This document shows positions 2,574 through 51,578 of a stretch of 64,000 nucleotides of DNA, piece by piece. Origin of the DNA: Sipunculus nudus (Eukaryota > Annelida > Sipuncula > Golfingiida > Sipunculidae); contig CM049318.1 of assembly GCA_026874595.1 (NCBI GenBank), positions 42,700,456-42,764,455 of the forward strand. Reading direction: 5' to 3'. The notes below the pieces were generated by a model. It was not told the DNA's origin and did no database searches. It worked only from the letters and a program-made list of their open reading frames with translations. The translations under genes and the position numbers were made by a program. Every line of letters starts with the position of its first letter. The first letter of the stretch is position 1.

Positions 2574-3389
2574 TGTTACAGGTGCTCTTTTTATTGTGTG
2601 ACACGGGCGTAACTCGTGTTGTTGTTGTTGCACTCTCGGTTTGATCCGTACTAGTTGAACTCTCGTTGTCATGCTAGCATGGGGCCTTCTCGCCTGGTCG
2701 CGCCGGGGCGAGGTCACGTGTGGACCCTGGTTTGTAGAGACACAGCGATGTTCTTCTAGATGATTCCTGTAACGCGTGTTTACTGTGTATTATGTTAGAT
2801 CCTTTAAAATGTTCGAGAAGTGGAAAATGCTCGGCTTGGGGCAAGAAGTTATTAAAATAGGGGGCTGTGTTTTAAGAGCGGAGAGAGAGCAGAGAAGATT
2901 CCAGCGGACGCAGAAGCGTGTGTGTCAGTTTGTGGGACCTTATCCGATGAGTGCGGCAATTATAGATTGTCTTCAGACTTTCTCCTGGATTTTGTGACGA
3001 GTCTTGTTTGGACTTCAGTTTATTTTCTGGATTGTTACAAGAGTTTTACATGGGACTGTTATTCTAGGAGAGTATACTTTTAAAGAACTTGTCGTTGTGA
3101 CGGTGGTGGTATCCAGGTACTGTGCACATTGTTTATTTTACTGTGTGATTGCATTGATTTGTTGTTATACCGCTGTTATACTGTTTATTGTATTGATTCA
3201 GTGTATTGTAATGTTAGGGTTGTTTTAAGAATAAATTATAGTTATTTGTTAACAAAAAAACCACTGACTTCTTTGTTCATTCCCCTGGACATTTCACGCT
3301 GCCTAGTGTTACAGAATCTGATTTTTTTTATCTCCTTGACAAAATTTGTGTTCACCACGCATACGTGATCTGTTTATGGTTCCGTAACA
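2574..3389 (+). mobile_element. solo LTR, family A copy 1 (A1)
   Basis: The 816-bp sequence begins TGTTACAGGTGC and ends GGTTCCGTAACA, so it has short inverted TGTTAC...GTAACA ends typical of retroelement LTRs. Copies sharing most of its length occur at 36199-36687, 36711-37318, 54634-55399 and 63183-63997. An AATAAA signal lies at 3230-3235 near the 3' end; the TATA region seen in other copies is degenerate here. The element is flanked by ATGT on both sides (2570-2573 and 3390-3393), which reads as a 4-bp target-site duplication, so this is a solo LTR left by LTR-LTR recombination. Its small open frames are not coding. It is closest to the 63183 copy: both read GTGA(C)(A/G)AGTCTTGTTTGGACTTCAG where the other copies read GTGCATTTGGACTTCAG. 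Confidence 0.82.
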
Positions 3390-4626
3390 ATGTTCCCATA
3401 AAAAGTTACAAAATTAACACGCATTACTTCCAACTGACAGACAGTGTTGATCTTCAAACTGTGAAAACATGAATGCTTAGATATGTATGAACTTTCATAA
3501 TCATATGTATTTGCATAAAATGCCACAGAAATATTATTCTACATAATTAATAGTTATTAACTGATAAATCCATGTGGTCTGTCTGGGGGTGATGAGGCTC
3601 ATAACAGGCCTTCATTTTGGATGGATGTCCTGAGGTCGTGGTAATATTTATAAAACAAGAATGAAGATAAACATAAATAATTTATTTGATATATTTTAAC
3701 CATTATTGGTACTTTTAGTTGTCTATGTACTGGTCAGCACTATCATAATTTATACATAAGTAGAGAGAACGAATCCATACTGATATTTTGCCATATATTG
3801 TAACTGATGACCACGGCTCTTGCATTCCACTTTAATCATACTTCAAAATACTTCACATATAGAAATCCTTCATAGGCTGCCAAACCAAATATTCATTGGG
3901 GGGGGGGGGCAACAGTACACAAAAATACGGTACACGAAGTACCAAGGGCGCAAAACGCCCGAGCGGAGGAGGATATGTTGGTGGGGCCCTCCTCTGACCG
4001 GGCCATTAAATTCTTGGCTTTAACTTTACGGTTGGATATAATTTGATTGAGTGATCGAATTTCGGATGGTATAATTACAATAGTACTTGTTGTAGGTTAT
4101 TTAGGCCTGTACAGCGGAAATAATGACTGTACACCAGAGAATACAAGCACGTGTATACTTATCGCCGCCTATATATGTCCTTTGCATTCTAAATACGTGC
4201 CCTCGCGTGAGCAGTTGGTCGTGAGGAGCACTTTATGTACCCTTGGTGAATTAACAATGCGGTCAGACAATGATAGTCGAAGACCAGACAGACAAGTCCC
4301 TGTGAGAATTCCTTCCTTGGTAACATGCCATTACATGGTCAGTCTAAGTTAGGAACAGATGAAATATTCTGGCATTCTTAAACCGTTTGAATGAAGTTCT
4401 CTTGTTCCTCCGACTCGTGGTTATCAGTATCACGCACATTTCCCCTGAGTAATATATCTATATCTGTTTTTGGAACGTTGTCTTGTACCATGACGGAGGC
4501 GAAGCGCGATGTATGAGCGAGGAATGTCCCGACAAATTGAAAAGCATCCCTCCGTCAATTTACTGTTTTATATATTTTTACAAACTAAGCGTGGTTGCGT
4601 AATCGCTAAAACATCCGAATGTAAAC
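3390..4626. other. noncoding stretch with a G-homopolymer
   Basis: There is no supported gene. A 12-G run lies at 3898-3909, followed by a somewhat GC-richer patch to about 4020. The 101-codon open frame at 4047-4352 has no recognisable motif, and I treat it as chance. Confidence 0.55.
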
Positions 4627-5570
4627 TACCAGTAATCGGGTACCCTTGTGTCACATTCAGACTTACAACTATCCCAGTAATCGGGAACCCTCGTGTAACA
4701 TACAGGCTTACAACTGTCCCAGTAATCGGGTACCCTCGTGTCACATTCAGACTTACAACTGTCCCAGTAATCGGGAACCCTCGTGTAACATACCGACTTA
4801 CAACTGTCCCAATAATCGGGTACCCTCGTGTCACATACAGACTTACAAATGTACCAGTAAACGGGTACCCTGGTGTCACATACAGACTTACAAATGTACC
4901 AGTAAACGGGTACCCTCGTGTCACATACAGACATACACTTGTACCAGTAAACGGGTACCCTGGTGTCACATACAGACTTACAAATGTACCAGTAAACGGG
5001 TACCCTCGTGTCACATACAGACTTACAACTGTACCAGTAAACGGGTACCCTCGTGTCACATACAGACATACACTTGTACCAGTAAACGGGTACCCTGGTG
5101 TCTCATACAGACTTACAAATTTACCAGTAAACGGGTACCCTCGTGTCACATACAGACATACACTTGTACCAGTAAACGGGTACCCTGGTGTCACATACAG
5201 ACTTACAACTGTACCAGTAAACGGGTACCCTCGTGTCACATACAGACATACACTTGTACCAGTAAACGGGCACCCTGGTGTCACATACAGACTTACAACT
5301 GTACCAGTAAACGGGTACCCTCGTGTCACATACAGACATACACTTGTACCAGTAAACGGGTACCCTCGTGTCACATACAGACTTACAAATGTACCAGTAA
5401 TCGGGAACCCTCGTGTCACATACAGACTTACAAATGTACCAGTAATCGGGAACCCTCGTGTCACATACAGACATACACTTGTACCAGTAAACGGGTACCC
5501 TGGTGTCACATACAGACTTACAACTGTACCAGTAATCGGGTACCCTCATGTCACATTCACATTCACATTT
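4627..5570. repeat. 45-bp minisatellite, about 21 copies
   Basis: About 21 head-to-tail copies of a 45-bp unit built around GTAAACGGGTACCCTCGTGT followed by CACATACAGACTTACAAATG. Most units carry a KpnI-type GGTACC; some have GGAACC. Variants alternate: near 5100-5340, units with CATACACTT alternate with CTTACAACT, and at the 5' end GGTACC/CATTCAG units alternate with GGAACC/TAACATAC units. This indicates a 90-bp higher-order unit. Because 45 is a multiple of three and the unit lacks stops in most frames, long open frames appear on both strands (up to 355 codons on +, 313 on -); the + frame reads as 15-residue repeats such as VPVNGYPRVTYRLTN. This is a property of the repeat, not evidence of a gene. 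Confidence 0.93.

Positions 5571-11578: not shown

Positions 11579-11628
<50 letters not shown>
11579..11628. repeat. (TA)n microsatellite
   Basis: About 24 TA units that abut the left end of a family B mini-element. The first bases of that LTR (TGTT) appear to have been absorbed into the repeat. Confidence 0.97.
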
Positions 11629-11629
<1 letters not shown>

Positions 11630-12048
11630 CGAAGACAAATTGCTCAGGGGAAAATACTGGGCTGATCCGGGATTCGAACCCATATTGGTTGCGCACATGT
11701 CCGGCGTTCCAGCCGCCTCGCTAGAAAAGCAAGCTTCTCTAGCGAGACAGTTTGGTCCGCTTTTATGTCACCCCGTAACACACCCCTCTTAAGAGCGTTC
11801 TGATATCAGAACAGGTCTAATTATCCACGGAGTCACACTTTGGTGAGCTTTTTCCCTGGGTCACAAAGTTTACCATCTCGTCGGACGAGCCCCCATTTTG
11901 TTACGAAGACGAATTATTCAGGGGAAAATACTGGGCCCATCCGGGACCCATGTCGATGGCGCACATGTCCGGCCTTCCAACCGCTTCGCTAGAAAAGCAA
12001 GCTTCTTTAGCGAGAAAGTTCTGTCCGCTTTTATGTCACCCTGTAACA
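11625..12048 (-). mobile_element. TRIM-like mini LTR element, family B copy 1 (B1)
   Basis: The best-preserved copy, on the minus strand. Right (5') LTR is 11899-12048 (150 bp) and left (3') LTR about 11625-11780. On the minus strand the LTR begins TGTTAC(A/G)GGGTGACATAAAA and ends CTTCGTAACA. Three bases (AAA) separate the 5' LTR from a primer-binding site TGGGGGCTCGTCCG (11895 to 11882), matching 14 nt of the tRNA-Pro-type site known from murine leukaemia virus. A roughly 100-bp internal region without coding capacity ends in a purine tract AAGAGGGGTG (11790 to 11781) beside the 3' LTR. The left LTR contains a tRNA-like B-box GGTTCGAATC (11680 to 11671) and a 9-bp stem CTCGCTAGA/TCTAGCGAG. 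ATATA follows the right end and the TA repeat lies at the left, so the target was AT-rich. Total size of about 424 bp fits TRIM elements. Confidence 0.85.
11882..11895 (-). other. tRNA-Pro primer-binding site of B1
   Basis: Minus-strand TGGGGGCTCGTCCG, 3 bp inside the 5' LTR. Complementary to the 3' end of tRNA-Pro; the equivalents are 13543-13531, 18179-18168, 35483-35494 and (with indels) 35759-35778. Confidence 0.8.
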
Positions 12049-13204: not shown

Positions 13205-14180
13205 AAATCCCCGATTCAATCAGGTAACAAGTTTGCAATGAGCTGGTAGTGACTGAATGTCGAATATTTTTCTCCAGATATGTTTAAGTTCAAGGGAATT
13301 TTTTCACTTGTCTGCTATAAAAAAAAGTACGTGTGTAAGGCTTTCCCTTTAAAAGGTCATCAAAGAATGGCAAAATTTGTTATTCACTACCGAGACAGTT
13401 TGGACCGCTTTTATGTCACCCCATAACACACCCCTCTAAAGAGCGTTCTGTTATCAGAACAAGACTAATTATCCCAGGAGTCACACTTTGATGAGCTTAT
13501 TCCTTGGGCCACAAAGTTTACCGTCACGTAGGACGAGCCCTCATTTTGTTATGAAGGTAAATTGCTCAGGGGAAATCTTCGGGCAGATCCTGGATTCGAA
13601 CCCATGTTGGTGGCGCACAAGTCCGGCGTACCGTGGCGCACACGCAAGCTTCACTAGCGAGACAGTTCGGTCCGCTTTTATGTCGTCCCGTAACAAAAAG
13701 AATCGCACAAAGAAATGGGGGTTTCGAAAAAGACGTGAGAATTTTTCCCTTGGTAAACATAAACAACATGGGTGCAACACTGCGTGCGTGATGACAATGT
13801 TGTAAGTATTATTTGTTAGATTGTATGTAGAGGCCATCTACTGTGAAAATAATTGAAAGAAATGATATGACTATAGCAAAGAGAAAGTTTATGAAAGATA
13901 CTTTATATATAGTGATGCTGAGAAAAGATCATATAAAAAAACTGTTTGTAGTTGTTAGTTGAGGGTAGTCTTATATTAACAGACACATGAAGACTCTTGC
14001 AAGCGGACACTTAACGTAAACACGGACCGGGAGCATCTAACCATAGCGGCCTCCACATTACGGAGGCTTGCATTCGAAGGAATGCAAATTTCTAGTTTGT
14101 AAATGGAATTCCTATCAGTTTAAAGATGTAGTGGTGACATGTTTTCGTGTTTCAACATCATGGAGATACTTATGATTGTA
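13205..14180 (+). repeat. diverged 1-kb duplication, copy 1
   Basis: Aligns in the same orientation with about 14545-15620. Shared landmarks are GAAAATCC near the start, CAAAGAATGGCAAAATTTGT versus CAAAGAATTGCAAATTATGC, AATCGCACAAAGAAAT, GCCATCTACTGTGAAAATAA, TTGAGGGTAGTCTTA versus TTAAGGGTAGTCTTA, and AGTTTAAAGATGT followed by ACATGTTTT. Copy 1 carries the B2 mini-element (13391-13695), absent from copy 2. No ORF is shared between the copies, so this looks like a duplicated noncoding or repeat segment. Confidence 0.7.
13391..13695 (-). mobile_element. TRIM-like mini LTR element, family B copy 2 (B2), truncated
   Basis: Minus-strand copy with a complete 5' LTR (13547-13695, 149 bp), AAA spacer, a primer-binding site TGAGGGCTCGTCC (13543 to 13531, one change from the tRNA-Pro match), an internal region, and only the first 38 bp of the 3' LTR (13391-13428). 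The LTR keeps the tRNA-like B-box (GGTTCGAATCC, 13602 to 13592), but its hairpin segment is rearranged by a local inverted GTGCGCCAC-type sequence. It sits inside copy 1 of the 1-kb duplication; copy 2 shows the corresponding unoccupied sequence near 14749. Confidence 0.82.
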
Positions 14181-18008: not shown

Positions 18009-18339
18009 GTACCAACCGCTTCGCTAGAAAGTTCGGTCCGCTTTTGTGTAACCCCGTAACACATTCCCTCTTAAGAGCGTCTGCTATCAGAACAAGACTA
18101 ATTATCCCAGGAGTCGTCACACTTTGGTGAGCTTATTCCCTGGGCCACAAAGTTAACCGCCACGTTAGACGAGCCCCCATTTTGTTACGAAGGCACATTG
18201 TTGAGGGGGGAAATCCTGGGCCGATCCGGGAGTCGAACCCAGGTCGGTGGCGCACAGGTCTGGCGTACCAACCGCTTCGCAAGCAAAGCAAGCTTAACTA
18301 GCGAGACAGTTCGGTCCGCTTTTATGTCACCCCTTAACA
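18009..18339 (-). mobile_element. TRIM-like mini LTR element, family B copy 3 (B3)
   Basis: Minus-strand copy. Complete 5' LTR 18183-18339 (157 bp); 3' LTR truncated to 18009-18061; internal region with the family hallmark words (AGTGTGACGACTCCTGGGAT, AGTCTTGTTCTGATAGC) and purine tract AAGAGGGAATG. Primer-binding site TGGGGGCTCGTC (18179 to 18168) follows an AAA spacer. The LTR holds the tRNA-like segment with B-box GGTTCGACT (18239 to 18231). After the tRNA-like part only TTT remains, where other copies have TTTT or TTTTT. The LTR ends read TGTTAAGGGG and CTTCGTAACA. Confidence 0.85.
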
Positions 18340-19880: not shown

Positions 19881-22020
19881 GTTGGGTTGTAACATAAGGA
19901 AGCGTTGTTAATATTTATTGCGTCCTAGCTTGAGGTGTAACATGAGGAAGCGTTGTTTATATTTATTGCGTCCTTCTTGGGTTGTAACATAAGGAAGCGT
20001 TGTTAATGTTTATTGCGTCCTTCTTGGGTTGTAACATAAGGAAACGTTGTTAATATTTATTGCGTCCTTCTTGGGTTGTAACATAAGGAAGCGTTGTTAT
20101 TGTTTATTGCGTCCTTCTTGGGTTGTAACATAAGGAAGCGTTGTTAATATTTATTGCGTCCTTCTTGGGTTGTAACATGAGGAAGCGTTGTTAATGTTTA
20201 TTGCGTCTTTCTTGGGTTGTAACATGAGGAAACGTTGTTAATATTTATTGCGTCCTGGCTTGAGTTTTAACATAAGGAAGCGTTGTTAATATTTTCTGCG
20301 TCCTAGCTGTGGTTGTAACATAAGGAAGCGTTGTTAATATTTATTGTGTCCTGGCTTGAGTTGTAACACAAGGAAGCGTTGTTAATATTTATTGAGTCCT
20401 TCTTGGGTTGTAACATAAGGAAGCTTTGCTAATATTTATTGCGTCCTTCTTGGGTTGTAACATAAGGAAGCGTTGTTAATGTTTATTGCGTCCTTCTTGG
20501 GTTGTAACATGAGGAAACGTTGTTAATATTTATTGCGTCCTTCTTGGGTTGTAACATAAGGAAGCGTTGTTAATGTTTATTGCGTCCTTCTTGGGTTGTA
20601 ACATAAGGAAGCGTTGTTAATATTTATTGCGTCCTTCTTGGGTTGTAACATAAGGAAGCGTTGTTAATGTTTATTGCGTCCAACTTGGGTTGTAACATAA
20701 GGAAACGTTGTTAATATTTATTGCGTCCTGGCTTGAGTTTTAACATAAGGAAGCGTTGTTTATATTTTCTGCGTCCTAGCTGTGGTTGTAACATAAGGAA
20801 GCGTTGTTAATATTTATTGTGTCCTTCTTAGGTTGTAACATAAGGAAGCGTTGTAAATGTTTATTGCGTCCTTCTTGGGTTGTAACATGAGGAAACGTTG
20901 TTAATATTTATTGCGTCCTTCTTGGGTTGTAACATAAGGAAGCGTTGTTAATATTTTCTGCGTCCTAGCTGTGGTTGTAACATAAGGAAGCGTTGTTAAT
21001 ATTTATTGCGTCCTTCTTGGGTTGTAACATAAGGAAGCGTTGTTAATGTTTATTGCGTCCTTCTTGGGTTGTAACATGAGGAAACGTTGTTAATATTTAT
21101 TGCGTCCTGGCTTGAGTTTTAACATAAGGAAGCGTTGTTAATATTTTCTGCGTCCTAGCTGTGGTTGTAACATAAGGAAGCGTTGTTAATATTTATTGTG
21201 TCCTGGCTTGAGTTGCAACAAAAGGAAGCGTTGTTAATATTTATTGCGTCCTTCTTGGGTTGTAACATAAGGAAGCGTTGTTAATATTTATTGCGTCCTT
21301 CTTGGGTTGTAACATAAGGAAGCGTTGTTAATGTTTATTGCGTCCTTCTTGGGTTTTAACATAAGGAAGCGTTGTTAATATTTTCTGCGTCCTAGCTGTG
21401 GTTTTAACATAAGGAAGCGTTGTTAATATTTATTGTGTCATGGCTTCAGTTGTAACATAAGGAAGCGTTGTTAATATTTATTGCATCCTTCTTGGGTTGT
21501 ATCATAAGGAAGCGTTCTTAATGTTTATTGCGTCATTCTTGGGTTGTAACATAAGGAAACGTTGTTAATATTTATTGCGTCCTTCTTGGGTCGTAACATG
21601 AGAAAGCGTTGTTAAAGTTTATTGCGTCCTTCTTGGGTTGTAACATGAGGAAACGTTGTTAATATTTTTCTTGCGTCCTAGCTGTGGTTGTAACATAGGG
21701 AAGCGTTGTTAATATTTATTGTGTCCTGGCTTGAGTTTTAACATAAGGAAGCGTTTTTAATATTTATTGCGTCCTTCTTGGGTTGTAACATAAGGAAGCG
21801 TTGTTAATATTTATTGCGTCCTAGCTGTGGTTGCAACATAAGGAACGTTGTTGATATTTATCGCGTCCTGGCTTGGGTTGTAACATAAGGAAGCGTCGTT
21901 ATTATATTTATTGCGTCCTGGCTTGGGTTGTAACATGAGGACGCGTTATTAATATTTATCGCGTCCTGGCTCGGAGTGAAACATAAGGAAGCGTTGTTAA
22001 TATTAATTTCGTCCTGGCTT
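19881..22020. repeat. 47-bp minisatellite, about 45 copies
   Basis: Unit: GGGTTGTAACATAAGGAAGC then GTTGTTAATATTTATTGCGT then CCTTCTT. Main variants differ at the junction (TTCTTGGGTTGTAAC, GGCTTGAGTTTTAAC, AGCTGTGGTTGTAAC) and at TATTTATTG versus TATTTTCTG. The block GGCTTGAGTTTTAAC...TTTTCTGCG...AGCTGTGGTTG recurs as a package at about 20253, 20727 and 21106, showing higher-order amplification of multi-unit segments. Units become more diverged at the 3' end (after about 21840). Confidence 0.95.
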
Positions 22021-35396: not shown

Positions 35397-35754
35397 CGTC
35401 GGACTTGTGCGCCACCGACCTGGGTTCGACTCCCGGATCGGCCCAGGATTTTTCCCCTCAACAATTTGTCTTTGTAATAAAATGGGGGCTCGTCTAACGT
35501 GACGGTTAACTTCGTGGCCCAGGGAATAAGCTCACCAAAGTGTGACTCCTGGGATAATAAGTCTTGTTCTGATAGCAGAACGCTCTTAAGAGGGGATGTG
35601 TTACGGGGTGACATAAAAGCGGACCGAACTGTCTCGCAGCGAAGCTTGCTTTGCTAGCGAGGCGGTAGGTTCGCCGAACTTGTGCGCCACTGACCTGGGT
35701 TCGACTCTCGGATCGGCCCAGGATTTTTCCCCTCAACAATTTGTCTTTGTAATA
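35397..35754 (+). mobile_element. TRIM-like mini LTR element, family B copy 4 (B4), plus strand
   Basis: The 5' LTR is internally deleted (about 35397-35479, retaining the first TTACG and the tRNA-like 3' half). Then come an AA(A) spacer, primer-binding site TGGGGGCTCGTC (35483-35494), an internal region of about 100 bp, a purine tract AAGAGGGGATG (35588-35598) and a full 156-bp 3' LTR (35599-35754, TGTTACGGGG to TTTGTAATA). In the 3' LTR the tRNA-derived segment runs about 35654-35720: A-box-like TAGCGAGGCGG, a tRNA-like middle, T-arm with B-box GGTTCGACTC (35698-35707), acceptor-like ATCGGCCCA, then TTTTT (35724-35728), a possible Pol III terminator. Unusually, the 3' LTR is followed by a second primer-binding site, so it also serves as the 5' LTR of the next element. 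Confidence 0.85.
35654..35728 (+). promoter_or_regulatory. tRNA-derived Pol III promoter-like segment in the LTR
   Basis: Shows in order an A-box-like word (TAGCGAGGCGG, near TRGCNNARNNGG), anticodon-arm-like CGCCGAACTTGTGCG, a T-arm CTGGGTTCGACTCTCGG containing a B-box, a 3' acceptor-like ATCGGCCCA, and T5. The 5' acceptor strand is missing, so this is tRNA-derived rather than a tRNA gene. Equivalent B-boxes are found in the other family B LTRs at 11680-11671, 13602-13592, 18239-18231 and 35423-35433. Pol III activity is inferred, not shown. Confidence 0.62.
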
Positions 35755-35758
35755 AAAT

Positions 35759-35778
35759 TGGGGGCTCTCGTCGGGATA
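35759..35778 (+). other. second tRNA-Pro primer-binding site
   Basis: TGGGGGCTCTCGTCGGGAT lies directly after the B4 3' LTR. Compared with the 18-nt tRNA-Pro site it has an extra CT and lacks one C, but the GGGAT end is present, giving a longer footprint than the mini-elements keep. Confidence 0.7.
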
Positions 35779-36198
35779 CTTAATAGTTTTCAAATTTATT
35801 AGGCCTTGACCTGGACACGTTGTTTTATCATACATTGTTTACAAGATTACATATTGTTTTCAGTTCATTGTTTACAGGATTTATCTCAGTGGTTTTTTGT
35901 CACTGTTTTGAGATCTTAACATGGCAGATTTCAAACCTGATACATTTGTTGACGATCCCGACCCTGATCAACTTGAACAGTTGTCAAAAGAACAGTTGTT
36001 GCGTTTGGGACAACACTTGGGGCTAAGTGTGAAAAAAAACTTTGAGAAAGCCTGATATCATTGCAAAAATCATGCAAGATCTTATTAGCAAATGTTTAAT
36101 TGAAGAAACTGAAGTTGAAAAAATGACAGCCTTGCTATGCAATTAGAATTAGAAAAAGTTGGAAATGCAACATGAGCTAGCATTAAAAGAGAGAGAAC
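35779..36198 (+). pseudogene. broken gag start of an LTR retrotransposon
   Basis: After a leader of about 140 bp, an ATG at 35921 opens a 44-codon frame (start MADFKPDTFVDDPDPD, stop 36053-36055). The run of eight A at 36032-36039 looks like a frameshift point: in the next frame the helical pattern continues to a stop at 36144-36146, and after a further shift a Glu/Leu/Lys-rich coiled-coil-like stretch reaches about 36198. The segment LSKEQLLRLGQHLGL resembles the N-terminal SAP-like helix-turn-helix that I know from gag proteins of metazoan Ty3/gypsy elements; a domain search is needed to confirm this. No capsid, zinc knuckle, protease or RT follows. The copy is dead: two frame breaks and a 3' truncation into a family A LTR. 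Confidence 0.55.
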
Positions 36199-44530: not shown

Positions 44531-45857
44531 GACACTGTGTACAGCATGATGTATTTTAATATGCTGACACTGTGTACAGCATGATGTATTTTTATATGCT
44601 GACACTGTGTACAGTATGTTGTATTTTAATATGCTGACACTGTGTACAGTATGTTGTATTTTAATATGCTGACACTGTGTACAGCATGATGTATTTTAAT
44701 ATGCTGACACGGTGTACAGCATGATGTATTTTAATATGCTGACACTGTGTACAGCATGTTGTATTTTAATATGCTGACACTGTGTACAGCATGATGAATT
44801 TTAATATGCTGACACTGTGTACAGCATGATGTATTTTAATATGCTGACACTGGGTACAGCATGATGTATTTTAATATGCTGACACTGTGTACAGCATGAT
44901 GTATTTTCATATGCTGACACTGTGTACAGCATGATGTATTTTAATATGCTGACACTGTGTACAGCATGATGTATTTTAATATGCTGACACTGTGTACAGC
45001 ATGTTGTATTTTAATATGCTGACACTGTGTACAGCATGATGTATTTTAATATGCTGACACTGTGTACAGCATGTTGTATTTTAATATGCTGACACTGTGT
45101 ACAGCATGTTGTATTTTAATATACAACACAGTGTACAGCATGATGTATTTTAATATGCTGACACTGTGTACAGCATGATGTATTTTCATATGCTAACACC
45201 GTGTACAGCATGATGTATTTTCATATGCTGACACTGTGTACAGCATGATGTATTTTCATATGCTGACACTGTGTACAGCATGATGTATTTTCATATGCTG
45301 ACACTGTGTACAGCATGATGTATTTTCATATGCTGACACTGTGTACAGCATGATGTATTTTCAAATGCTGACACTGTGTACAGCATGATGTATTTTAATA
45401 TGCTGACACTGTGTACAGCATGATGTATTTTAATATGCTGACACTGTGTACAGCATGATGTATTTTAATATGCTGACACTGTGTACAGCATGATGTATTT
45501 TAATATGCTGACACTGTGTACAGCATGATGTATTTTAATATGCTGACACTGTGTACAGCATGATGTATTTTTATATGCTGACACTGTGTACAGCATGATG
45601 TATTTTAATATGCTGACACTGTGTACAGTATGTTGTATTTTAATATGCTGACACTGTGTACAGTATGTTGTATTTTAATATGCTGACACTGTGTACACCA
45701 TGATGTATTTTAATATGCTGACACTGTGTACAGCATGATGTATTTTAATATGCTGACACTGTGTACAGTATGTTGTATTTTAATATGTTGACACTGTGCA
45801 CAGTATGTTGTATTTTAATATGCTGACACTATGTACAGCATGATGTATTTTAATATG
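44531..45857. repeat. 35-bp minisatellite, about 38 copies
   Basis: Unit: CTGACACTGTGTACAGCATG then ATGTATTTTAATATG. Variants are CAGTATGTTG, TTTTCATATG (clustered 45180-45370) and one divergent unit ATACAACACA at 45121. The edges are sharp; the right edge changes to GC-richer sequence within one unit. Confidence 0.96.
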
Positions 45858-46080
45858 CCGGCTTCGCTCTGGTCGCGTTTAAAACACTCTCATTACGTCA
45901 GGTCATTAAAAAATCTATCCCAAACGGAAGGCGACTTTCCCCGAATTCTTCCTAGGGGTATTAAGAAAATTGTGTTTGCGTCCATGTACACCTTCGTTAG
46001 ATCGTCTATGGAAACACTAAAGCGAGGACCCCTTCGCTCGTGCGGGTTATTTCTTGGGGTAAAATATAAAAAAAGACAAC
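45858..46080. other. GC-richer, possibly coding segment, strand uncertain
   Basis: Immediately after the 35-bp array, the sequence is open on both strands. Plus strand: frame 45831-46100 (…SLKNLSQTEGDFPRILPRG…). Minus strand: frame 46123-45893, preceded by an acceptor-like pyrimidine tract TTTTATATTTTACCCCAAG and reading KVYMDANTIFLIPLGRIRGK. I recognise neither, and splice-like words exist for both. This could be an exon or part of an old element. Confidence 0.25.
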
Positions 46081-49096: not shown

Positions 49097-51578
49097 TTGC
49101 CTTGTTTGTGATACGTAGGAGCCGCTGTCCGCTTTAGACAGCTTTAGTGTAGACATCGTCGGCCAGGTGCCAGCACCTTGTTTGTCATACTTAGGAGCCG
49201 CTGTCCGCTTTAGACAGCTTTAGTGTAGACATCGTCGGCCAGGTCCCATCACCTTGCTTGTTGTACTGAGGAGCCTCTGTACGCTTTAGACAGCTTTAGT
49301 GTAGACATCGTCGGCCAGGTCACAGCACCATGTTTGTCATACTGAGGAACCAGCTGTCCGCTTAAGACAGCTTTTGTGTAGACATATTAGGTCAGGTCCC
49401 AGCACCTTGCTTTTTATACTGAGGAGCCGCTGTCCGCTTTAGACAGCTTTTGTGTAGACATATTAGGTCAGGTCCCAGCACCTTGCTTGTCATACTGAGG
49501 AGCCGCTGTCCGCTTAAGACAGCTTTAGTGTAGACATCGTCGGCCAGGTCCCAGCACCTTGCTTTTTATACTGAGGAGCCGCTGTCCGCTTTAGACAGCT
49601 TTAGTGTAGACATCGTCGGCTAGGTCACAGCATCTTGTTTGTCATACTGAGGAACCAGCTGTCCGCTTTATACAGCTTTTAGGTAGACATATTAGGTCAG
49701 GTCCCAGCACCTTGCTTTTTATACTGAGGAGCCGCTGTCCGCTTTAGACAGCTTAAGTGTAGACATATTAGGTCAGGTCCCAGCACCTTGCTTTTTATAC
49801 TGAGGAGCCGCTGTCCGCTTTAGACAGCTTTAGTGTAGACATCGTCGGCCAGGTCACAGCATCTTGTTTGTCATACTGAGGAACCAGCTGTCCGCTTTAG
49901 ACAGCTTTAGTGTAGACATCGTCGGCCAGGTGCCAGCACCTTGTTTGTCATACTGAGGAGCCGCTGTACGCTTTAGACAGCTTTAGTGTAGACATCGTCG
50001 GCTAGGTCACAGCATCTTGTTCGTCATACTGAGGAACCAGCTGTCCGCTTTAGACAGCTTTAGTGTAGACATCGTCGGCTAGGTCACAGCATCTTGTTTG
50101 TCATACTGAGGAACCAGCTGTCCGCTTTAGACAGCTTTAGTGTAGACATCGTCGGCTAGGTCACAGCATCTTGTTTGTCATACTGAGGAACCAGCTGTCC
50201 GCTTTAGACAGCTTTAGTGTAGACATCGTCGGCTAGGTCACAGCATCTTGTTTGTCATACTGAGGAACCAGCTGTCCGCTTTAGACAGCTTTAGTGTAGA
50301 CATCGTCGGCTAGGTCACAGCATCTTGTTTGTCATACTGAGGAACCAGCTGTCCGCTTTAGACAGCTTTAGTGTAGACATCGTCGGCTAGGTCACAGCAT
50401 CTTGTTTGTCATACTGAGGAACCAGCTGTCCGCTTTAGACAGCTTTAGTGTAGACATCGTCGGCTAGGTCACAGCATCTTGTTTGTCATACTGAGGAGCC
50501 GCTGTACGCTTTAGACAGCTTTAGTGTAGACATCGTCGGCCAGGTCACAGCATCTTGTTTGTCATACTGAGGAACCAGCTGTCCGCTTTAGACAGCTTTT
50601 GTGTAGACATATTAGGTCAGGTCCCAGCACCTTGCTCTTTATACTGAGGAACAAGCTGTCCGCTTTAGACAGCTTTAGTGTAGACATCGTCGGCCAGGTC
50701 CAAGCACCTTGTTTGTAATACAAAACAGCTTTTGTATAGATATATTAGGCCAGGTCCCAGCACAGGTCCCAGCACCTTGCTTTTTATACTGAGGAGCCGC
50801 TGTCCGCTTTAGACGGCTCTTGTGTAGACATCGTCGGCTTGGTCCCAGCAGATTTAGTGTAGACATCGTCGGCCAGGTGCCAGCACCTTGTTTGTCATAC
50901 TGAGGAACCAGCTGTCCGCTTTAGACAGCTTTAGTGTAGACATCGTCGGCCAGGTCACAGCATCTTGTTTGTCATACTGAGGAACCAGCTGTCCGCTTTA
51001 GACAGCTTTAGTGTAGACATCGTCGGCTAGGTCACAGCATCTCGTTGTCATACTGAGGAGCCGCTGTACGCTTTAGACAGCTTTAGTGTAGACATCGTCG
51101 GCCAGGTAACAGCATCTTGTTTGTCATACTGAGGAACCAGCTGTCCGCTTTAGACAGCTTTAGTGTAGACATCGTCGGCCAGGTCACAGCATCTTGTTTG
51201 TCATACTGAGGAACCAGCTGTCTGCTTTAGACAGCTTTAGTGTAGACATCGTCGGCTAGGTCACAGCATCTCGTTGTCATACTGAGGAGCCGCTGTACGC
51301 TTTAGACAGCTTTAGTGTAGACATCGTCGGCCAGGTCACAGCATCTTGTTTGTCATACTGAGGAACCAGCTGTCCGCTTTAGACAGCTTTTGTGTAGACA
51401 TATTAGGTCAGGTCCCAGCACCTTGCTCTTTATACTGAGGAACCAGCTGTCCGCTTTAGACAGCTTTAGTGTAGACATCGTCGGCCAGGTCCCAGCACCT
51501 TGTTTGTAATACTGAGGAGCCGATGTCCGCTTTAGACAGCTTTAGTGTAGACATCGTCGGCAAGGTCCCAGCACCTTC
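49097..51578. repeat. 77-bp minisatellite with hairpin, about 32 copies
   Basis: Unit: TTAGACAGCTTTAGTGTAGA, CATCGTCGGCTAGGTCACAG, CATCTTGTTTGTCATACTGA, GGAACCAGCTGTCCGCT. Each unit contains AGCTGTC-CGCTTTA-GACAGCT, a 7-bp perfect stem with a 7-nt loop. Two linked variant types alternate: CATCGTCGGC(C/T)AGGTCACAGC with GGAACCAGC, and CATATTAGGTCAGGTCCCAG with GGAGCCGC. Units from about 49990 to 50470 are nearly identical, so that stretch was amplified most recently. A scrambled patch lies at 50700-50880. Confidence 0.95.

Follow-up and report, generated by a model that had tools for sequence, protein, structure and literature searches.

A Helenus-type TRIM family with a tRNA-like stretch in its LTR in Sipunculus nudus, and its probable Gypsy helper

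Sipunculus nudus harbors an abundant family of short non-coding TRIM elements, of the type known as Helenus, that probably depends for its copying on proteins encoded by a Ty3/Gypsy element, one whose PBS is of tRNA-Pro type and whose domain order is Gmr1-like; we put the probability of this reading at about 0.7. The PBS is of tRNA-Pro type in both the TRIM and the Gypsy element, albeit imperfect in most Gypsy copies, and rearranged copies of the TRIM point to that element as the one that probably moves it. The family was found in a window of 64,000 nucleotides (the whole stretch analyzed, on contig CM049318.1) and followed through the genome (1.43 Gb, 153 contigs).

Copies in the window and across the genome

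A sequence-only reading of the window had described four TRIM copies. BLAST aligns pieces of at least 80 bp at 79–95% identity, so that all four places belong to one family, but only B1 keeps both LTRs near-complete (about 150 and 152 bp), B2, B3 and B4 each having one cut LTR. B1, B2 and B3 are on the minus strand and B4 on the plus strand. B4 begins in mid-LTR and does not end at 35754 as had been read: the sequence runs on into a Gypsy 5' UTR and gag remnant to about 36196. The features are as follows.

11625..12048, minus strand: B1, TRIM with two LTRs (sequence and BLAST)
12048-11899, minus strand: B1 5' LTR
11896-11898, minus strand: B1 spacer AAA, before the PBS
11884..11895, minus strand: B1 PBS TGGGGGCTCGTC (13 nt including the next C), complement of the tRNA-Pro 3' end
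11898-11781, minus strand: B1 interior, non-coding
11781..11790, minus strand: B1 PPT-like purine tract AAGAGGGGTG, directly before the 3' LTR (by eye)
11780 to about 11629, minus strand: B1 3' LTR, its end decayed into a (TA)n repeat
11670..11680, minus strand: B box GGTTCGANTCC of the B1 3' LTR (pattern search)
13383..13695, minus strand: B2, one full LTR (13695 to about 13547), interior and the first ~46 bp of a second LTR
18009..18339, minus strand: B3, one full LTR (18339 to about 18184), interior and the first ~40–50 bp of a second LTR
35397..35754, plus strand: B4, 83-bp LTR end (35397-35479), interior (35480-35598) and full LTR (35599-35754)
35655..35665, plus strand: A-box-like TAGCGAGGCGG in the B4 full LTR (by eye)
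35698..35708, plus strand: B-box-like GGTTCGACTCT in the B4 full LTR, one mismatch (by eye)
35724-35728, plus strand: T5 run in the B4 full LTR (by eye)
35755..36196, plus strand: Gypsy PBS, 5' UTR and broken gag start, joined directly to the B4 TRIM LTR (fused copy)

The reference for the B1 PBS was given by three tRNA-Pro genes of the same genome (L128, L129, L138). The exact B-box pattern GGTTCGANTCC has four matches in the window, both strands counted, and all lie inside B1–B4, with about 0.1 expected by chance (an estimate from its 10 fixed bases). Over the whole window, ARAGORN reported no tRNA genes and Rfam no matches at gathering threshold. Long minisatellite arrays also occur in the window, at 19882-22015 (47-bp units), 44531-45858 (35-bp units) and 49100-51577 (77-bp units).

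Genome-wide, the layout is constant: a 156-bp LTR, AAA, the tRNA-Pro-type PBS TGGGGGCTCGTC, a 119-bp non-coding interior, a PPT and a second LTR, about 431 bp in all, with lengths read from loci with intact marks among 39 loci drawn from the best-scoring copies (40 of 3,934 candidates were scored). The pairing of LTRs around a PBS and a PPT, proposed from the window, was borne out across loci. Exact 4-bp target duplications flank 24 of the 37 loci (out of 39 fetched) at which both ends were found, and 18 of these duplications are not ATAT; shuffling the flank pairing 1,000 times gave a mean of 3.0 (2.98) 4-bp matches and a maximum of 10. Flank matches of 3 or 5 bp were found at none of these 37 loci, and matches of 6 bp at six (shuffle maximum 5), an excess due to AT-repeat flanks. 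The exact 21-mer of the LTR start has 2,061 matches in the genome (1,077 + 984; none for the reversed control) and that of the LTR/PBS junction 846 (416 + 430).

Eight of the 39 loci hold arrays, (LTR-interior)n-LTR, whose unit recurs about every 275 bp; an exact 4-bp duplication surrounds the whole array in L009, L011, L022, L027 and L028 and is absent at L020, L033 and L035. An automatic tally of 40 loci on contig C1 gave 22 canonical, 5 tandem, 10 LTR-only and 3 one-sided forms, counting as canonical the fused L072 and also L081, whose LTRs are 5 kb apart. Loci L042–L081 comprise 39 taken in order along C1 by the exact LTR-start 21-mer, a choice that inflates the conservation of the LTR start, and L081, taken for its 5-kb spacing. 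The LTR pairs within 29 canonical copies are 86–97% identical (median 92%), so these copies are not young. Among the PBSs of L003–L080, the five bases after TGGGGGCTCGTC are the tRNA-like CGGGA in 8 of 36, with CAACG and others in the rest, a mixture to be expected if the PBS of either strand can be kept. Three loci (L117, L120, L121) represent a subfamily with an extra stretch in mid-interior, and in L120 and L121 the PBS matches tRNA-Pro further. At L113 (C1:7856288-7857275), the LTR end and PBS form head-to-tail repeats with a period of about 60 bp.

Promoter-like boxes and transcription

Pol III promoters have A-box and B-box patterns, and a spacing of the boxes like the one seen here fits a type 2 Pol III promoter. 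The majority LTR, built from 137 near-full LTRs of L003–L080 (BLAST matches from base 3 or earlier to base 150 or later; split LTRs were excluded and counted separately), carries an A box TAGCGAAGCGG at 58–68 and a B box GGTTCGAATCC at 101–111, both perfect (TRGCNNAGYGG and GGTTCGANTCC) and 43 bp apart, then GGCCCA ending at 123 and TTTT at 127–130. Individually, 77 of the 137 LTRs have an exact A box, 72 an exact B box and 41 both, with the 43-bp spacing in 38 of these 41. The A-box and B-box reading of the window copies holds in this majority sequence, but no copy in the window has both boxes exact at a tRNA-like distance (pattern search, 30–60 bp apart).

From these boxes, Pol III might transcribe the TRIM. 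A T4 run directly follows the tRNA-like part in 27/29 five-prime and 25/29 three-prime LTRs, and 24/29 have a further T4 immediately upstream of the A box; T4 occurs in the interior of only 2/29, which reflects one inherited sequence and thus provides no independent test. Given the T4 after the B-box part, Pol III would often stop early, and its product would mostly be an RNA of about 80 nt, or else a read-through to the next LTR. The LTRs also contain ATAAAA at about positions 15–20 in 127 of 137 cases (sampling favored intact LTR starts), a position from which Pol II, or Pol III aided by a TATA box, would begin within that same region. The former description of the element as devoid of Pol II signals is therefore insecure.

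Pol II transcription is in fact a serious contender, to which we grant somewhat less than an even chance: the TRIM and its helper would be the same, transcription would proceed from ATAAAA, some 30 bp upstream of the presumed Pol III start, and the tRNA-like stretch would be the relic of a captured tRNA or SINE head. The scarcity of LTRs with both boxes exact fits this alternative, as do the absence of most of the A box from 6 of 145 LTRs, the lack of a tRNA call by any search and the T4 just past the B-box part, which would end a Pol III RNA early. Conservation at non-CpG positions, a comparison limited by neutral decay and sampling, can be read both ways. The B box (0.934) is conserved at the average of the whole LTR (0.933), as would suit a relic, whereas the values for the A box (0.958) and T4 (0.963) lie a little above those for the sequence separating the two boxes (0.905) and for U5 (0.911), which argues against it, as does the absence of AATAAA from the majority LTR. 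In the model that we propose, transcription would begin at about LTR 40–51 of the 5' LTR, ahead of the A box; Pol III acting through the two boxes, Pol II acting through ATAAAA (~15–20), or both would make the RNA.

Fused copies, primer read-through and foldbacks

Gypsy copies were sought with the Gypsy stretch of the window as query, and 40 of 1,785 candidates were scored, the window included. Window positions 35755-36196 are 91–93% identical to the 39 other scored copies, and with the LTR included (35599-36196) the stretch is 82.6% identical over 609 columns to the same fusion in L072. This abundant Gypsy with a tRNA-Pro-type PBS is represented by L083 (contig C3) and L084 (C1). Pfam finds a SCAN-type gag in L084 and, in L083, Integrase_H2C2 (2767-3153) and p58_C (3542-4288) upstream of RVT_1/RNase H (4282-5217). 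Integrase before reverse transcriptase is the order of Gmr1-like Gypsy elements, and the SCAN-type gag is a further likeness; the helper is probably Gmr1-like, as judged by the domain order of L083. The TRIM itself is not that element. The Gypsy LTR measures about 780–820 bp (L084 and L083, by eye from the end motifs), starts with TGTTACAGG after a GGAGGGGGAG tract and ends with GTAACA; its termini resemble those of the TRIM LTR, beyond which the two LTRs show no likeness, and the TRIM LTR matches nothing in any of 20 fetched Gypsy loci. One of these 20 loci has a PBS exactly complementary over 18 nt to tRNA-Pro with CCA, and at least 8 have a variant shifted after the first nine bases.

Five fusions join a TRIM LTR to Gypsy PBS and gag (window 35599-36196, L072, L105, L108 and L109), with their junctions at the LTR/PBS boundary; one junction pattern, with 12 matches, retrieved four fusions, seven TRIMs and one foldback. 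L072 begins with a TRIM LTR, passes into PBS and gag of the Gypsy element, returns to the TRIM at its PBS and interior and closes with a second TRIM LTR; its flanks agree in three of four bases (AATG/ACTG, by eye). Such an order would be expected if reverse transcription had switched templates between co-packaged RNAs and plus-strand transfer had then completed the product at the PBS. We propose that a shared primer is what allows the LTR from one template to become joined to the PBS from the other. Such copies make the Gypsy element with integrase before reverse transcriptase the probable helper of the TRIM.

Two other candidates were rejected. L072 had suggested that the TRIM interior was the 3' end of the Gypsy element; the Gypsy copies L082–L084 contain no match to the interior, which makes a fused copy the better reading of L072. 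The other candidate was an autonomous element bearing the TRIM LTR; none of the 20 Gypsy loci is of this kind, and L091 and L093 have other DNA near the PBS. The longest ORF of L081 has no Pfam match.

Primer sequence is retained in some copies. The 22-mer of the tRNA-Pro 3' end has 49 matches in the genome: four in tRNA genes (L129, L138, L142, L151), 16 in a cluster on contig C14, of which the one read (L128) is a tRNA-Pro gene, and 29 others, all fetched, which comprise three primer read-throughs and 26 foldbacks. The repeated tRNA-Pro matches at C14:19081324-19319682 are spaced by steps of mostly ~3.6 kb; similar runs of tRNA matches occur at C9:40605435-40699894 in steps of ~1.67 kb. In the read-through loci L130, L131 and L133, the complement of tRNA-Pro extends past the PBS through 63, 35 and 36 nt of tRNA body plus CCA, respectively. 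It adjoins the LTR end (by eye) of a TRIM in L130 and L131 and of a Gypsy element in L133; in L130 it then continues into a Gypsy LTR.

In the 26 foldbacks, the PBS is followed at once by an inverted TRIM LTR that starts from the T arm (~LTR 115, the limit of LTR identity to the tRNA-Pro stretch). The inverted LTR reaches LTR base 1 in 17 of the 26; past the T arm, the alignment of L104 is limited to positions 50-1. A TRIM LTR end precedes the PBS in 21 (19 by BLAST; L132 and L147 by eye) and a Gypsy LTR in four (L139, L144, L153, L156), L154 being unclear. As L134/L135 and L149/L150 look like duplicates, the independent loci are at most 24. Four foldbacks have two whole arms: L134 and L143 lie within exact 4-bp duplications (TGGC and CCTT), L148 has flanks with one mismatch, and L140 is preceded by TRIM interior. 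Among eight others re-fetched with longer flanks, only L183 has an exact duplication (CTGT on both sides), which makes 3 of the 12 checked, several ends being cut or unclear. The 18-nt PBS of the foldbacks is not an independent fact, because the search pattern demanded it; the shared breakpoint and the duplications are independent of that selection. Arm identity in four foldbacks is 0.90–0.95, close to the between-element mean of 0.90, so that it does not separate self-foldback from an origin in two molecules.

The breakpoint lies in the T arm, where the LTR resembles the 3' end of tRNA-Pro. Compared with nine tRNA genes of this genome, the LTR has a modest likeness. A tRNA-Thr gene (L122) is collinear with it over 55 bp, including CTTGT of the anticodon loop, yet its z of 3.3 is no better than those of Lys and Gly tRNA genes (3.1–3.4). 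Only another tRNA-Thr gene (L123, z 4.9) and tRNA-Pro (z 5.0–5.4) exceed all 300 shuffles, and the tRNA-Pro likeness, with 16 bases identical to L138, is confined to the T arm and 3' end. An 18-nt sequence exactly complementary to tRNA-Pro pairs with tRNA-Pro itself at -41.2 kcal/mol and, in the LTR, best at about 107–123 (-26.9 kcal/mol), a value reached by 4 of 500 shuffled LTRs (mean -19.6 kcal/mol). Pairing with the LTR is unremarkable for the usual Gypsy PBS variant (-19.9) and for the usual TRIM PBS (-16.1). If the pairing has any role, it is therefore in plus-strand strong-stop DNA, because the end of that DNA copies the tRNA itself.

Synthesis of plus-strand strong-stop DNA ends where the primer tRNA carries m1A58. 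In the proposed cycle, the TRIM RNA would enter Gypsy particles, where tRNA-Pro would prime reverse transcription and the plus-strand strong-stop DNA would end in a copy of the last 18 nt of the tRNA. Because the T arm and 3' end of the LTR resemble the tRNA-Pro 3' end, this DNA might sometimes anneal at the T arm of an LTR; it would then copy that LTR backwards instead of extending on its proper partner, and the products would be inverted elements, some of which could still integrate. A wider reading, which we think rather doubtful, would make the tRNA-like stretch more than a promoter: its T arm and 3' end would mimic the tRNA-Pro 3' end, letting strong-stop DNA with the copied 18-nt PBS at its end pair with RNA or DNA of the TRIM. 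Plus-strand transfer would thereby be misdirected, giving inverted elements with two U3 ends and 4-bp duplications, and the stretch may also capture strong-stop DNA of the helper onto TRIM templates.

Foldbacks and fusions might instead have arisen by DNA recombination or nested insertion and be uninformative about the helper, which we consider unlikely. Repeats are dense here, the pairs L134/L135 and L149/L150 look like segmental duplicates, the flanks of foldbacks L147, L154, L182 and L188 are complex, and 9 of the 12 foldbacks checked are without an exact duplication, all of which would suit such an origin. It accounts poorly for fusions that all fall at the LTR/PBS boundary, foldbacks that share a single breakpoint interval in the T arm, three of them within exact 4-bp duplications, and three loci where tRNA-Pro sequence extends past the PBS next to an LTR end.

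The family among known TRIMs

As had been read from the window, the tRNA-like stretch is a regular part of the LTR; it is not a separate repeat. Among 145 two-ended LTRs, 137 align through it and eight are split by deletions, six of these without most of the A box and two without the B box (L042 lacks both). Moreover, the B-box 22-mer has 405 places in the genome, and 20 of 20 sampled lie inside these LTRs, two with the LTR start cut (drawn from the first 31 listed, 11 near known copies or in close pairs being skipped). A SINE inserted in a few LTRs, with a coincidental layout, is thereby refuted for the copies sampled and hardly credible beyond them, for the box and T-arm likeness to tRNA and the few LTRs without boxes, which might suggest it, stand against LTRs whose gaps are explained by deletions, B-box 22-mers confined to LTRs and 4-bp duplications located at the LTR ends. 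In the LTRs of L043, L044, L046, L073 and L074, bases ~22–35 to 60–67 are absent, a gap that takes away the left-hand part of an inverted repeat together with some or most of the A box; it is possibly a recurrent deletion or a subfamily.

Rfam recognized no tRNA in the LTR: 14 loci gave no tRNA match at E ≤ 5, the sole match, which covers the T arm of L003, being to 13 nt of a tmRNA (E 2.6, 9.7 bits), and ARAGORN found no tRNA genes in 57 loci (of 121). Nor did Rfam match 5S rRNA in the window (gathering threshold) or in the 14 loci (E ≤ 5). The family resembles the plant TRIM Cassandra in having a stretch like the promoter of a small-RNA gene in its LTR, but is tRNA-like where Cassandra has a 5S rRNA promoter. 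An animal analogue with a tRNA head, once put forward as new, is already in print: Kojima (2024, PMC10886601) describes Helenus as TRIMs with a tRNA-like LTR stretch from six animal phyla, bivalves included, and proposes for them Pol III transcription and an origin by SINE capture. Our family has the features of Helenus and of TRIMs generally, namely paired LTRs, PBS, PPT, a short non-coding body, boxes and 4-bp duplications. The likeness to Helenus (animal TRIMp3) extends to a length mostly below 1 kb, an A and a B box in each LTR, the presence of a PBS and a PPT, 4-bp duplications, a tRNA-Pro PBS in some bivalve families, a Gypsy-like PBS, tandem arrays (LTR-11_DR) and mostly no working tRNA (PMC10886601). 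By these published features, the family is best filed as a further member of Helenus.

It differs from Helenus as so described in its fusions, which tie the TRIM to one Gypsy family, and in its inverted copies, which join the PBS and the tRNA-like T arm. Kojima reports no complementarity between the tRNA-like stretch and the PBS in his families (PMC10886601), whereas in this family the T arm does pair with the exact complement of tRNA-Pro, the common TRIM PBS pairing weakly. He also argues that LTR homology with a helper is unnecessary (PMC10886601), a view that the different LTR of the Gypsy element supports. The mollusc biv-TRIM is similar in its solo and tandem forms but has 202–218-bp repeats, a 77–80-bp interior and no clear PBS (Satovic 2019, PMC6934838), against a 156-bp LTR, a 119-bp interior and a tRNA-Pro-type PBS here. 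Among the matches listed in the literature from 2024 on, Kojima's paper is the only one on Helenus, and the listed titles and abstract starts, on inverted or plus-strand products and on Gmr1 and TRIM, mention neither the foldback nor this helper, which is weak evidence of absence.

The filing of tRNA-like repeats as SINEs or tRNA pseudogenes could, we infer, mislabel LTRs of this kind. The broken copies of the family suggest a fossil record of its replication, in which a probable helper, the primer and a side reaction of tRNA mimicry may be read. The foldbacks suggest that a tRNA-like LTR has a second effect, on the PBS step, and the fused and primer-bearing copies make one animal pair of TRIM and helper directly testable.
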